The position numbers and the translations under genes were made by a program. Shown piece by piece: positions 25,533-64,000 of a stretch of 64,000 bases of DNA. The DNA comes from Pedobacter ureilyticus (lineage in GTDB: Bacteria > Bacteroidota > Bacteroidia > Sphingobacteriales > Sphingobacteriaceae). Positions within the stretch are counted from its first letter, which is position 1. Every line of letters begins with the position of its first letter. The notes beneath the pieces are model-generated. The model was not told the DNA's origin, ran no database searches, and saw only the letters and a program-made list of their open reading frames with translations. The DNA is taken from the NCBI RefSeq assembly GCF_005925345.1, contig NZ_SSHJ01000007.1:128479-192478 (forward strand), written 5' to 3'.

Positions 25533-25625
25533 ATGTCCTCAATAAGATATTCCTATTGGCCAATTTGGATCAGGAGAAACCGAAAACCTGAAATAGAGTA
25601 GGTACTTAAATAAAACTATAATACA

Positions 25626-25877
25626 ATGAAAAAATTATTTTTTTCTGCTCTGGTTGCAGTAGTTGCTGTTGGCGGAGCTTTTGCCTCAAGTAGTATGAGA
25701 ACTGAAGGAGATTTGTACTCTGAGAATTCACCATCTCCTGATATTGCTTGTCATGGTGATGAAGCTGCTTGTTCAAGCGTGTATGGCAATATCCAAGTTT
25801 CTACAACCGCGCCGGGCACGCCTGGTCGCGTTTTATTTGACCTTCAAGGTTCAGGCTATACAGCGGATCTTCCATAG
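25626..25877 (+). CDS. Small secreted Cys-containing protein (DUF6520-like)
   Basis: An 83-residue protein with a clear signal peptide (about 1-20, cleavage after FA). The mature part of about 60 residues carries two Cys in a HGDEAAC context (C-HGDEAA-C), so it could hold a disulfide or bind metal. It resembles the small DUF6520 proteins common in Bacteroidetes, of unknown function, which often sit next to MauE-like genes. A strong terminator follows at once, so it is a well-defined short transcript. Confidence 0.75.
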   Translation: MKKLFFSALVAVVAVGGAFASSSMRTEGDLYSENSPSPDIACHGDEAACSSVYGNIQVSTTAPGTPGRVLFDLQGSGYTADLP

Positions 25878-60412: not shown

Positions 60413-60619
60413 ATGATACAATTTAAACTAGAAGGGGAATTTATCCCATTAATCGCCTTGTTAAAAGCTACCTCGTTGGTTCAAAGCGGTGGCGAAGCAC
60501 AAACCATTGTAGAAGAAGGGCTTGTTAAAGTGAACGGCGTTACCGAAGACCGTAAGCGATTAAAAGTACGTATTGGCGACAAAGTGGAATTTTTGAGCAA
60601 AACGATAGAAGTAATTTAA
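60413..60619 (+). CDS. Small S4-domain RNA-binding protein (YbcJ-like)
   Basis: A 68-residue protein that is a single S4 RNA-binding domain (alpha-L motif about 10-55, with GGEAQTIVEEGLVKVNG). S4 proteins of this size bind structured RNA and are often linked to ribosome biogenesis. Its TAA stop overlaps the aroB ATG by one base, so they are coupled. Confidence 0.9.
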   Translation: MIQFKLEGEFIPLIALLKATSLVQSGGEAQTIVEEGLVKVNGVTEDRKRLKVRIGDKVEFLSKTIEVI

Positions 60620-61677
60620 TGGAACCGTTAAAAAATAATGATCATTTTATCCATTTCGAAAGTGGATTAGCTCCATTAAACGATATTTTAGCCGAGAAAA
60701 AATACAGCAAAGTATTTGTATTTGCCGACTCTAATACCGCAGAAATTTGTTTGCCCGTTTTTAGGGAGTTTTTACCTGAACTCGAAAACTTCGATATTAT
60801 TGAAACCGACCCAGGAGAAGAAAACAAGAACATTGATTTTTGTATTGGCATTTGGAAAACTTTGTTGGATTTTGAAGCCGACCGTAAATGTTTAATGATT
60901 AATTTAGGTGGTGGCGTAATTACCGACATGGGTGGTTTTATCGCATCTACTTACAAGCGAGGAATTGATTTTATTAATATTCCTACTACGCTACTTTCTC
61001 AAGTTGATGCTTCTGTAGGTGGTAAAACTGGCATCGACATCGATAATGTGAAAAATATGGTAGGCACATTTAGCTTACCACAAGCGGTATTTATCGAAAA
61101 TGCTTTCTTGCAAACTTTGCCTCAACGCGAATTATTGTCAGGCTTTGCCGAAATGATAAAACATGGCTTAATTGCAGATGCTACTTACTACCAACAACTT
61201 AAAGACAGCGATTATACCAACATCAGCGCAGCAGCTATTTATCACTCTGTGAAAATTAAAAACGAAGTGGTATTGGCAGATCCGTTAGAAAAAGGACTAC
61301 GAAAGATTTTGAACTTTGGACATACCATTGGACATGCTGTAGAAGGTTATGCTTTAGTAAATGATAAAAAACCGCTTACTCATGGCGAAGCGATCGCTAT
61401 CGGGATGATTTGTGAAGCACATTTATCAGCTAAATATTGTAACTTATCGCAAGACGAGTTAACAGAAGTAGCGAGTTATATATTATCTCTATATCCAAAA
61501 TACCACATTAAACCAAAAAGTTTTGAAGACTTAATGGTATTAATGCAAAGCGATAAAAAAAACGAGGATGGTTTCATCATGTTCTCTTTATTAGACCAAA
61601 TTGGTAAATGCGTTTTTAATTGCAAGGTAACTAAAGAAGATATTTTTAACAGTTTAATGTATTACAATAGTTTGTAA
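60619..61677 (+). CDS. aroB: 3-dehydroquinate synthase
   Basis: A 352-residue enzyme with the AroB NAD-binding segment (GGGVITDMGGFIASTYKRG, about 98-116), the PTTLLSQVDASVGGKTG block (about 121-137) and the metal ligands in the H...GEAIAIGM segment (about 256-263). It converts DAHP to 3-dehydroquinate, the second step of the shikimate pathway. The pheA-DAHP synthase operon is 1.2 kb downstream. Confidence 0.95.
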   Translation: MEPLKNNDHFIHFESGLAPLNDILAEKKYSKVFVFADSNTAEICLPVFREFLPELENFDIIETDPGEENKNIDFCIGIWKTLLDFEADRKCLMINLGGGVITDMGGFIASTYKRGIDFINIPTTLLSQVDASVGGKTGIDIDNVKNMVGTFSLPQAVFIENAFLQTLPQRELLSGFAEMIKHGLIADATYYQQLKDSDYTNISAAAIYHSVKIKNEVVLADPLEKGLRKILNFGHTIGHAVEGYALVNDKKPLTHGEAIAIGMICEAHLSAKYCNLSQDELTEVASYILSLYPKYHIKPKSFEDLMVLMQSDKKNEDGFIMFSLLDQIGKCVFNCKVTKEDIFNSLMYYNSL

Positions 61678-61680
61678 CAA

Positions 61681-62631
61681 ATGACGTTTACCGGAAGTGA
61701 TATTTCTGTAGGCACACTTTTTAGTTTTGTGATTGTGCTTGCCATAGTTGAAATGTATTTTAGCTATGCGCACAACAAGCAACTTTACACTAAAAAAGAT
61801 ACTTGGAACAATATTTATTTAATGACCTGTGCCGTGCTGGTAAACTTAACCATGAAGTTTGCCACATTTTATCTCCTAGATTATTGCTATCAATTTAGAT
61901 TTTTTGAGATACATAACACATGGTTATACTGGATTTTATTGGTGCTTGCTCAAGATCTACTTTATTGGTTTTTACATACTACTGGGCATTACGTTCGTTT
62001 TTTTTGGGCAATGCACGTTACCCACCATTCGTCAGAACATTTTAACTTAACTACCGGGTTTCGCTCCACAGTTTTTGAACCACTGTATCGGGTGTTTTTC
62101 TATTTACCCTTAGCTTTCATGGGCTTTCACGCCATGGATATCTTATTTGCTTATCTAATCACGCAAATCTACGGCAATTTGGTACATACTAGAACAGTTG
62201 GAAAGCTGCACCCGATCTTCGAATATATCTTTGTTACACCTTCTCACCACAGGGTTCATCATGCATGTAACATACGCTATTTAGACAAAAACATGGGCAT
62301 GGTACTTATTATCTGGGATAGGATATTTGGCACCTTTCAAGAAGAACTACCCGAAGACGAAATAAAATACGGGCTTACTACACAAGTTGAAGATACTGGT
62401 GCTTTTAACCTCATTTTTCACGAATTTATTGCGCTAAAAAAAGATATCCAGAAGACAAACAATTTTTGGAATAAAATAAAATATATCGTTAATCCTCCTG
62501 GATGGAGCCATGATGGTAGTACGCAAATTGCCAAAACAATGAGAAAAGAACTAATGGAAACAGAAAAGAAAAACCATGCTATTGGAAATAGTGTGAAAGT
62601 TTTTTCTAGTTCTTATCAATCCAAAATCTAA
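61681..62631 (+). CDS. Fatty acid hydroxylase/sterol desaturase-family membrane protein
   Basis: A 316-residue di-iron membrane protein with membrane helices (about 8-30, 42-65, 80-100, 138-160) and the three histidine boxes: HTTGH (about 99-103), HVTHH (about 112-116) and HHRVHH (about 184-189). Proteins of this family hydroxylate or desaturate lipids. It follows aroB by 3 bp and may be co-transcribed. The substrate is unknown; carotenoid, fatty acid and ceramide-like lipids are all possible in Bacteroidota. Confidence 0.88.
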   Translation: MTFTGSDISVGTLFSFVIVLAIVEMYFSYAHNKQLYTKKDTWNNIYLMTCAVLVNLTMKFATFYLLDYCYQFRFFEIHNTWLYWILLVLAQDLLYWFLHTTGHYVRFFWAMHVTHHSSEHFNLTTGFRSTVFEPLYRVFFYLPLAFMGFHAMDILFAYLITQIYGNLVHTRTVGKLHPIFEYIFVTPSHHRVHHACNIRYLDKNMGMVLIIWDRIFGTFQEELPEDEIKYGLTTQVEDTGAFNLIFHEFIALKKDIQKTNNFWNKIKYIVNPPGWSHDGSTQIAKTMRKELMETEKKNHAIGNSVKVFSSSYQSKI

Positions 62632-62703
62632 AATTACCAAAATTCTATACCGTTTCGTTATTTGGTTCAAAAATGGCAAAATAAAATTATTTTCATTTAA
62701 CTA

Positions 62704-62734
62704 TTGACAAATTAAATTTGTTGGTGTACATTTG
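62704..62734 (+). promoter_or_regulatory. Promoter of the pheA operon
   Basis: TTG (62704-62706) and TACATTTG (62727-62734) match the Bacteroidetes -33 TTG and -7 TAnnTTTG boxes with 20 bp between them. The expected start site is about 62740, so the leader peptide start at 62752 follows after about 12 nt. Confidence 0.75.
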
Positions 62735-62751
62735 ACACCAGAAGACAAAAA

Positions 62752-62814
62752 ATGAATTTTAACACTACATATTGGTTTGGTTACTTTTACTACTTTAGTA
62801 AGAGCCAGGACTAA
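62752..62814 (+). CDS. Aromatic-rich leader peptide of the pheA attenuator
   Basis: A 20-codon frame with nine aromatic residues: Phe at 3, 9, 12, 15; Tyr at 7, 11, 13, 14; Trp at 8. The last codons (AGC CAG GAC) are also the antiterminator arm. The ATG is preceded by an A-rich stretch, as usual in Bacteroidota. Its role would be to stall the ribosome when charged Phe, Tyr or Trp tRNA is scarce, not to make a functional protein. Confidence 0.85.
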   Translation: MNFNTTYWFGYFYYFSKSQD

Positions 62815-62888
62815 TATGCTTAAAGTATAACAAGATATTTTAAAACATACGAAAAGGTCCTGGCTAAAAGTCAGGACCTTTTTTTGTT
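62803..62888 (+). promoter_or_regulatory. Attenuator: antiterminator and terminator of pheA
   Basis: The antiterminator is AGCCAGGAC (62803-62811) with GTCCTGGCT (62857-62865), a perfect 9-bp pairing. The terminator is AAAAGGTCCTG (62852-62862) with CAGGACCTTTT (62872-62882), followed by more T. The two compete for 62857-62862. A ribosome that reaches the leader stop (62812) masks the antiterminator arm, so the terminator forms; a ribosome stalled on the aromatic codons leaves the arm free. A weak protector pairing of TTGGTT (62772-62777) with the AGCCAG part is possible. Confidence 0.85.
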
Positions 62889-62898
62889 TAGCACAATT

Positions 62899-63732
62899 AT
62901 GAAGACAAAAACAAGGGTAGCGATACAAGGCATTAAAGCATCATTTCACGAAGAAGCAGCTTTCAAATTTTTCGGCAGAGATATCGACACGATTGAATGC
63001 AACTCTTTTAAACAGACCTGTGATGTTTTAGATGACGACAAAGCGGATTATGTAGTAATGGCAATTGAAAACTCTATTGCAGGTAGTCTATTGCCAAATT
63101 ACACCCTAATTCGCGAATTTAACTTCGCTGTTGTAGGTGAAGTATACCTGCCAATTCAGCTACACCTACTGGCTTTACCTGGAGTTAAATTTGAAGACAT
63201 TAAAATCGCCACCTCTCACCCTATTGCTATCAGACAGTGTGTAGATTTTTTTGAAGAGTTTCCTCAAATTCAAGTAATAGAAGGCAATGATACCGCTGCC
63301 TGTGCCAAAAAAATTAAAGATGGGCAACTGAAAGATACTGTGGCTATTGCCAATGCTTTGGCCGCCGAAACTTATGGCTTAAACATCATAGAAAGAAGAA
63401 TAGAATCTAATAAGAAGAATTTCACCCGTTTCTTAATCCTACAAAAAAGGAAAATGGTTACCGAAAAAGGAATAAATAAAGCATCTATCTGCTTTCAGGT
63501 GGGACACCATGTTGGCGCATTAAGTCAAGTATTACAAATTTTTGCCGAGCTGAACGTTAACTTAACAAAAATCCAATCTATGCCTGTTTTGGGGCGCCGA
63601 AACGAATACTATTTCTATGTAGATATTGAATGGAAGAACATGGAAAATTACGATACCGCGATTAGAAGAGCACTTAAATATACCGTAAACTTCAATATCA
63701 TGGGCGAGTATATTAAGAACGACAAAGTATAG
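62899..63732 (+). CDS. pheA: Prephenate dehydratase
   Basis: A 277-residue enzyme with the PDT catalytic domain (about 1-180: RVAIQGIKASFHEEAA at the start, the SIAGS segment near 62-66 and the NFTRFLIL segment near 175-182) and a C-terminal ACT domain (about 195-270) for phenylalanine feedback. The usual GPxG-like motif is QGIKA here. The frame is open to a TTG at 62884, but the ATG at 62899 is preferred. The gene is the first of the attenuated operon. It makes phenylpyruvate from prephenate. Confidence 0.93.
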   Translation: MKTKTRVAIQGIKASFHEEAAFKFFGRDIDTIECNSFKQTCDVLDDDKADYVVMAIENSIAGSLLPNYTLIREFNFAVVGEVYLPIQLHLLALPGVKFEDIKIATSHPIAIRQCVDFFEEFPQIQVIEGNDTAACAKKIKDGQLKDTVAIANALAAETYGLNIIERRIESNKKNFTRFLILQKRKMVTEKGINKASICFQVGHHVGALSQVLQIFAELNVNLTKIQSMPVLGRRNEYYFYVDIEWKNMENYDTAIRRALKYTVNFNIMGEYIKNDKV

Positions 63733-63836: not shown

Positions 63837-64000
63837 ATGAAATTAAATTTAAACATTGAGCCTTTAGAAAACTGGTTAACGGTAAGCAACCAACCTCTAT
63901 TAATCTCTGGGCCTTGTAGCGCCGAAACAGAAGACCAATTACTAACTACGGCACATTTATTAGCAGCAACTGGCAAAGTAAGCGTTTTAAGAGCTGGTAT
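63837..64000 (+). CDS. DAHP synthase (partial; probably fused to chorismate mutase)
   Basis: The frame runs 54 codons from the ATG at 63837 to the window end. LLISGPCSAET (about 21-31) is the start motif of type I-beta DAHP synthases, the first enzyme of the shikimate pathway. In Bacteroidota this protein is often bifunctional with chorismate mutase at the C-terminus, which is outside the window. It follows pheA by 104 bp and is presumably under the same attenuator. Confidence 0.9.
   Translation, partial: MKLNLNIEPLENWLTVSNQPLLISGPCSAETEDQLLTTAHLLAATGKVSVLRAG

Follow-up and report, generated by a model that had tools for sequence, protein, structure and literature searches.

Leader-peptide attenuation is a classic mechanism of E. 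coli, represented in Enterobacteria by trpL and pheL, and a comparative paper of 2010 by Lopatovskaya and colleagues may cover Bacteroidetes. In their general design the enterobacterial leaders have a short ORF with cognate codons, mutually exclusive 1:2, 2:3 and 3:4 stems and a terminator, and the element that we describe here, upstream of pheA of Pedobacter ureilyticus, has the same parts. Its leader precedes pheA as pheL does. Whereas trpL and pheL use one amino acid, leaders of this kind mix Phe and Tyr codons, often together with Trp.

The authors of a 2010 paper stated that the only leader-peptide systems they knew to have been demonstrated, apart from the Firmicutes case which they themselves presented, were in Proteobacteria and Actinobacteria (PMC2965389). 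Bacteroid-trp (RF01692), a leader-peptide RNA with a terminator from the same phylum as our element, is listed for Bacteroidetes in a further paper (PMC2864571); it is a Trp leader, whereas the element before pheA is a Phe/Tyr leader. For Flavobacterium psychrophilum one report gives strong indications that amino-acid operons are preceded by leader-peptide attenuators, and it names, in this species and other Flavobacteriaceae, a structured element 5' of pheA that is conserved in the family and has no Rfam match (PMC9723704). Our element likewise lies 5' of pheA and has no Rfam match, and the F. psychrophilum element is likely identical with the elements described here. Because leader-peptide attenuation in Bacteroidota has already been suggested in print, the attenuator described here is less singular than the initial annotation rated it: the mechanism is a known one, and its presence in this phylum had been suspected before. 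As far as literature searches go, the present work adds the class-wide extent, the three-helix anatomy and possibly a new tandem form in which both attenuators answer the same signal.

Gene neighbourhood and anatomy of the pheA leader

The window, by which we mean the whole 64,000-nucleotide stretch of DNA analysed, carries an aromatic gene cluster at its 3' end with every gene on one strand (+):

60619-61677, + strand: aroB, the first listed gene of the aromatic cluster
61681-62631, + strand: fatty-acid hydroxylase-like gene between aroB and the attenuator element; its stop lies about 220 nt before the terminator hairpin
62899-63732, + strand: pheA, prephenate dehydratase (PF00800, E 3.4e-53), the first gene under the proposed regulation
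63837-64000, + strand: start of a DAHP synthase/chorismate mutase fusion gene that runs past the window end

PheA also matches NCBIfam prephenate dehydratase models, at scores under their curated cut-offs. The gene order after the element is pheA, DAHP synthase/chorismate mutase, aroA and aroC, the last two on the same contig beyond the window. The genes share a strand, their order is consistent with an operon and the gaps between them measure about 100-180 nt, which suggests co-transcription. An initial annotation of the window had considered the operon content (pheA and DAHP synthase) to fit aromatic sensing; that the genes form an operon is a reading of their arrangement. The region upstream of pheA contains the following features:

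62704-62734, + strand: promoter of Bacteroidota type, with TTG at 62704-62706, a spacer of 20 nt and TACATTTG at 62727-62734
62752-62814, + strand: leader ORF MNFNTTYWFGYFYYFSKSQD of 20 codons, with ATG at 62752 and TAA at 62812-62814
62768-62818, + strand: 1:2 hairpin (protector), 22 pairs in the minimum-energy fold, with an inner hairpin 62784-62792/62796-62804
62803-62818, + strand: strand 2, the 5' side of the antiterminator, consisting of AGCCAGGACT and TATG; covaries in relatives
62820-62843, + strand: apical hairpin within the antiterminator (62820-62828/62835-62843), predicted from the fold of the window alone
62846-62865, + strand: strand 3, the 3' side of the antiterminator, with its main part 62856-62865 shared with the 5' side of the terminator
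62851-62885, + strand: intrinsic terminator with 15 pairs (62851-62883), a loop of 3 and a T run at 62879-62885

We take TTG and TACATTTG to be a promoter on the basis of the Bacteroidota consensus; the same site, 62704-62734, additionally scored as sigma-70-like. The leader MNFNTTYWFGYFYYFSKSQD contains four Phe, four Tyr and one Trp residue, so that 9 of its 20 residues are aromatic, and both promoter and leader are present before pheA at the coordinates given by the initial annotation. The 1:2 stem overlaps the leader codons in the fold of the window, and the stop codon TAA sits within strand 2. The segment AGCCAGGAC (62803-62811) is fully complementary to GTCCTGGCT (62857-62865), which is exactly the perfect 9-bp antiterminator claimed earlier; the actual helix is longer, with 10 bp (62803-62812 with 62856-62865) and an additional pairing of TATG (62815-62818) with CATA (62846-62849). 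For the terminator the T run was correctly annotated, and the stem has the 15 pairs listed above in place of the 11 bp reported. Antiterminator and terminator are mutually exclusive, as had been proposed, since the main part of strand 3 lies in the terminator 5' side. The 1:2 hairpin and the antiterminator extension with its apical hairpin are parts that the annotation did not contain. With them the layout is the full 1:2/2:3/3:4 design of trpL and pheL.

Positions 62741-62890 fold with a minimum energy of -47.3 kcal/mol, compared to -22.8 ± 3.4 kcal/mol for 200 shuffles (z -7.2, none as low), and a terminator search of the element found one terminator against a mean of 0.1 in shuffles. The whole window was searched for modules in which a terminator follows a short ORF that has six or more F/Y/W codons. 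On the + strand this gave two sites, the pheA leader and a TTG-start ORF at 25769; the − strand of the window held no such module. Only a single module is present before pheA in the window. Close in front of the ORF at 25769, positions 25570-25604 (+) match the DUF805b RNA (RF02914) with 42.7 bits, above the gathering score of 35.6.

The T-box and the enterobacterial leader families are counted among the 4227 families of Rfam 15, none of which reached its gathering cut-off in the region 62640-62920 (Thr_leader, 20.8 of 55 bits); the lack of any Rfam leader family at threshold is a difference from trpL and pheL. The top sub-threshold match was Bacteroid-trp, with 29.8 bits for 62727-62864 against a gathering score of 49. 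In the genomes of 41 relatives Bacteroid-trp was found over its cut-off in none and at E ≤ 0.001 in one.

Sites of other kinds were noticed in these searches. In a genome of the same genus (G008), the reverse strand of locus L113 at about 1480-1610 has a leader, MIIKNLNNNWWWHNEIR, and a terminator, upstream of genes that by eye resemble trpD and trpC; this leader scores 45.3 bits with the Bacteroid-trp model, under the cut-off of 49. When the window's own genome was searched with a covariance model of the pheA element (R1), 34 matches had an E of 10 or less, with 112.4 bits for the pheA leader and 46.4 bits for the next match. Among the eight best matches, which were read individually, one besides pheA was attenuator-like and the others look like different sites. 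This second likely attenuator (L206:1475-1611, on contig C51) has a Thr/Ile-rich leader, MTFNSSIITTIIITGGQAIGSNLV, and a strong terminator just 5' of a gene that begins like aspartokinase/ThrA (MKVLKFGGTSVG...); by eye, its terminator contains TCCCGAT, the complement of the candidate strand 2, ATCGGGA.

Conservation and covariation in near relatives

The near set consisted of 110 pheA upstream regions. Of these, L003-L032 are the best 30 of 42 genomes with a match among 59 searched, including the window's own genome, and L033-L112 are the best 80 of 240 genome contigs, mostly from Pedobacter and also from Nubsella, Daejeonella, Mucilaginibacter and others. The two parts probably share some species, and the 109 core sequences reduce to 85 distinct ones. 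Leader and terminator were found in 109 of the 110 regions and in 0.23% of shuffles; the reverse strands of the set gave 5/110 false matches. The single miss, L060, has just 144 nt of upstream sequence, in which the terminator is visible. The promoter pattern TTG-N17-23-TANNTTTG precedes the leader in 102 of 108 relatives' loci, a count that, like those of start codons and SD tetramers below, leaves out L042.

Helices were tested on an alignment of 85 rows (A1), each against 500 shuffles and against slid versions of itself. For the terminator, 99.1% of cells were paired and 43 were double-change cells; for the antiterminator the values were 96.6% and 22. Both covariation scores lay above all 500 shuffles, and slid versions reached at most 60.8% and 52.5% of cells paired, respectively. 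The initial annotation had pointed to the relatives for a check of covariation and leader conservation, and both are observed: terminator and antiterminator covary, and the leader is retained in 109 of the 110 loci with its aromatic codons conserved.

For the 1:2 stem the picture is weaker. The inner hairpin of 8 pairs was paired in 97.3% of cells, with slid versions at 62.3% or less, and two of its pairs show double changes, a number matched by 17 of 500 shuffles. The extended 1:2 stem, tested in a hand-written register with pairs 16/47 and 20/46, was 94.4% paired, and its covariation was not above shuffles (125/500 for cells paired, 487/500 for score). RNAalifold, with no structure supplied, also proposes the outer 1:2 stem, in which columns 20/47 change from G-C to C-G in nine rows. 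In these rows a leader codon reads Ala for Gly, strand 2 carries G where the other rows have C, and U stands in place of G in strand 3 and A in place of C in strand 4, so that one set of columns shifts together in all three exclusive helices and the antiterminator pair becomes G-U. The double change at 20/47 may represent one event, because the nine rows come largely from one record group (Daejeonella and the like). Judged from the alignment, the 1:2 stem is conserved and covaries weakly.

Codon usage in the leader follows the same structure, in counts that treat the sequences without regard to kinship, as do the start-codon counts. All 106 leaders use TAT for the first Tyr of the core, and 104/106 use TAC at core codon eight, both at paired positions. 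At the following Tyr codon, which has its third base in the hairpin loop, TAC occurs 51 times and TAT 45 times; the six genes of the window that served as a baseline have 52 TAT and 41 TAC. By these counts synonymous choice is fixed where the bases are predicted to pair and free in the hairpin loop. Of the 106 leaders scored at the Trp position, 71 have TGG and the remaining 35 a Tyr codon. The earlier view that the leader could sense all three aromatic amino acids is therefore too strong; its Phe and Tyr part stands, and these two form the core signal. Leaders start with ATG in 98 and with TTG in 10 of 108 cases, and the 12 nt preceding the start are 71% A (n=108). Unlike trpL and pheL, the leaders mostly lack an SD-like tetramer, which precedes the start in 3 and is missing in 105 of the 108 loci.

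Occurrence in the class Bacteroidia and tandem modules

Of 296 genomes sampled from the class, 89 had a match to the PheA of the window. The window's own genome and G155 and G319, where the match was a fragment or fell short of the gene start, were left out, giving 86 loci. A module of aromatic leader and terminator was found in 60/86 loci and in 19 of 27 families, against 2/1720 shuffles and 0/86 reverse strands. The peptides of other families have Phe/Tyr richness in common and little else. In 26/86 loci no module was detected, and negatives include the threshold misses L148 and L154 (five-aromatic leaders before a terminator) and L165 (weak terminator). Families in which no module was found were f12 (0/8), f16, f22 and f67 (0/2 each) and f25, f26, f54 and f71 (0/1 each). 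For f12 the aromatic leader module was missing in all eight pheA loci, L129, L131-L136 and L138. At L156:452-529, about 400 nt upstream of pheA and on the opposite strand to it, we noted a Flavo-1 RNA (RF01705, 78.6 bits).

Two families were sampled more deeply, f48 (best 30 of 46 genomes with a match), which we suspect to be Hymenobacteraceae, and f62 (best 30 of 38), suspected likewise to be Saprospiraceae. Modules were found in 30/30 and 26/30 of their loci. Complementarity of the terminator 5' arm to the leader end, counted where at least 190 of 200 shuffles were beaten and leaving out the modules of L215 and L252, was found for 107/109 modules of the near set, 40/52 of other families, 29/36 of f62 and 21/39 of f48, the weakest case.

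Two modules in series precede pheA in 4/86 class loci, 10/30 loci of f48 and 12/30 of f62, and none of 2920 shuffles contained two. The 24 distinct tandem genomes comprise 11 of f48, 12 of f62 and one of f21 (loci L180, L182, L185, L194, L216, L220-L223, L225, L226, L235, L237, L247-L249, L252-L254, L260, L263, L266, L269 and L270). Locus L188 is tandem by eye, with its first leader under threshold. Each module of a tandem has its own terminator, and the second leader starts a median of 20 nt after the first T run (range 0-71, 23 tandem loci). In 22/23 tandem loci no promoter of the phylum pattern lies between the first leader stop and the second leader start, and the second module is therefore probably reached by read-through of the first. 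The Phe/Tyr/Trp totals over 23 loci are 94/87/1 for first leaders and 122/88/4 for second leaders.

A literature search on tandem attenuators returned the Salmonella mgtCBR leader, where mgtM and mgtP form tandem attenuators with different signals, ATP and proline (PMC3641672). The mgtCBR leader and the tandem pheA loci share two short ORFs per leader RNA, each in an attenuator, and they differ in that both pheA modules are Phe/Tyr modules with their own terminators, whereas mgtM and mgtP differ in signal. We consider it reasonably likely that in families f48 and f62, as well as in one or more genomes of a third family, pheA lies behind two complete attenuators for the same signal, in series on one transcript. 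Such an arrangement would impose two starvation checks (an AND gate), with tighter repression and a steeper response, and the window, with its one attenuator, would show the basic unit of a class-wide system. The response curve of tandem attenuators with the same signal is directly measurable.

Ribosome position, proposed mechanism and alternatives

To relate the leader codons to the helices, a ribosome was modelled whose footprint was assumed to begin 14 nt upstream of the P site and to reach 11 nt past the first A-site base. For a transcript extending to 62868, the pair probability of the antiterminator was 1.00 whichever of the nine aromatic codons occupied the A site, and for codons 17-20 and the stop codon it was 0.00. 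In the model the switch point lies directly after the last aromatic codon, number 15, because the probability is 1.00 on the aromatic codons and 0.00 from codon 17 on (codon 16 left out). Without a ribosome the antiterminator reached 0.99 before the terminator 3' arm was made, and the finished RNA always favoured the terminator; the outcome therefore rests on kinetics. From aromatic codons to the stop codon, the free-energy gain of the antiterminator drops by at least 2 kcal/mol in 108/109 near-set modules, 41/52 modules of other families, 36/39 of f48 and 30/36 of f62; these counts leave out the modules of L215 and L252, and L101 was scored on another ORF than its leader.

A different measure of the antiterminator, pairing of the terminator 5' arm with anything upstream, had been used first and was rejected. 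At the window's stop codon it stayed at 0.84, against 0.00 for the specific pair, since the arm can pair weakly with other partners instead. By this measure a drop of more than 0.3 was seen in 54/109 near-set modules, 21/52 of other families, 19/39 of f48 and 23/36 of f62.

In the mechanism that we propose, RNA polymerase would start just 5' of the leader ORF, judging by the promoter, and a ribosome would translate the 20-codon leader. If charged tRNA-Phe or tRNA-Tyr (and, less surely, tRNA-Trp) is scarce, the ribosome would wait on an aromatic codon between codons 3 and 15 and cover strand 1. Strand 2 would then be free to pair with strand 3, no terminator would form and pheA would be transcribed. 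If aromatic amino acids are plentiful, the ribosome would reach codons 17-21 and cover strand 2, strands 3 and 4 would pair and transcription would stop at the T run. The element thus very probably turns the genes off when aromatic amino acids are abundant. We infer from the arrangement that the leader is translated, that ribosome and polymerase are coupled, that transcription terminates and that the system responds to amino acids. Anatomy and conservation support the initial assignment to the pheL/trpL type. Given the parts present, their conservation, their mutual exclusion and the geometry model, we estimate a probability of roughly 0.9 that a ribosome-mediated attenuator of trpL/pheL design controls pheA and probably also DAHP synthase/chorismate mutase, aroA and aroC.

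Strands 2 and 3 with the terminator alone would be enough for a factor-dependent attenuator or riboswitch, in which a protein or metabolite decides which of the two structures forms and the aromatic ORF is a coincidence. Nucleotide conservation in the leader region is in part independent of frame, as the leaders of L101 and L106 stop at YYPQ and yet retain AGTAAGAGC and the next bases of the stem. Against this, short ORFs packed with Phe and Tyr occur in 19/27 families with otherwise unrelated peptides, which is not expected of incidental ORFs; the leader stop codon lies within strand 2, and no Rfam family of any kind was over threshold. On these grounds such a switch is quite improbable. The near constancy of the peptide core in the Pedobacter group goes beyond the needs of codon counting, with 40 of 109 listed leaders ending in TYWFGYFYYFSKSRD, and could alternatively reflect arrest by the nascent peptide, i.e. 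TYWFGYFYYFSKSRD would stall the ribosome from within the exit tunnel, and the effector might be a free aromatic amino acid. The RNA accounts for this constancy, however, because the same bases form the 1:2 and 2:3 stems; moreover, synonymous choices are fixed at paired positions and other families retain Phe/Tyr richness and not the peptide sequence. We regard peptide arrest as very unlikely.

The hairpin might also merely end the transcript of the upstream gene at 61681-62631, which lies on the same strand and stops about 220 nt before it, the ORF being there by chance. The promoter pattern that separates that gene from the hairpin, in the window as in 102/108 relatives, and the conservation of leader and antiterminator with covariation render this explanation extremely improbable. 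Attenuation by a translating ribosome is thus the reading that we adopt.

For the organisms concerned, attenuation by the leader ribosome would place the supply of Phe and Tyr in control of the entry to the aromatic pathway, in a group that lies outside current RNA family models. Leader-peptide attenuation requires a ribosome that keeps pace with RNA polymerase. An attenuator that is widely conserved in Bacteroidia, with near-set leaders that mostly have no SD-like tetramer, would therefore be an argument that the phylum couples translation to transcription, and the pheA attenuator would be a ready reporter for such coupling.
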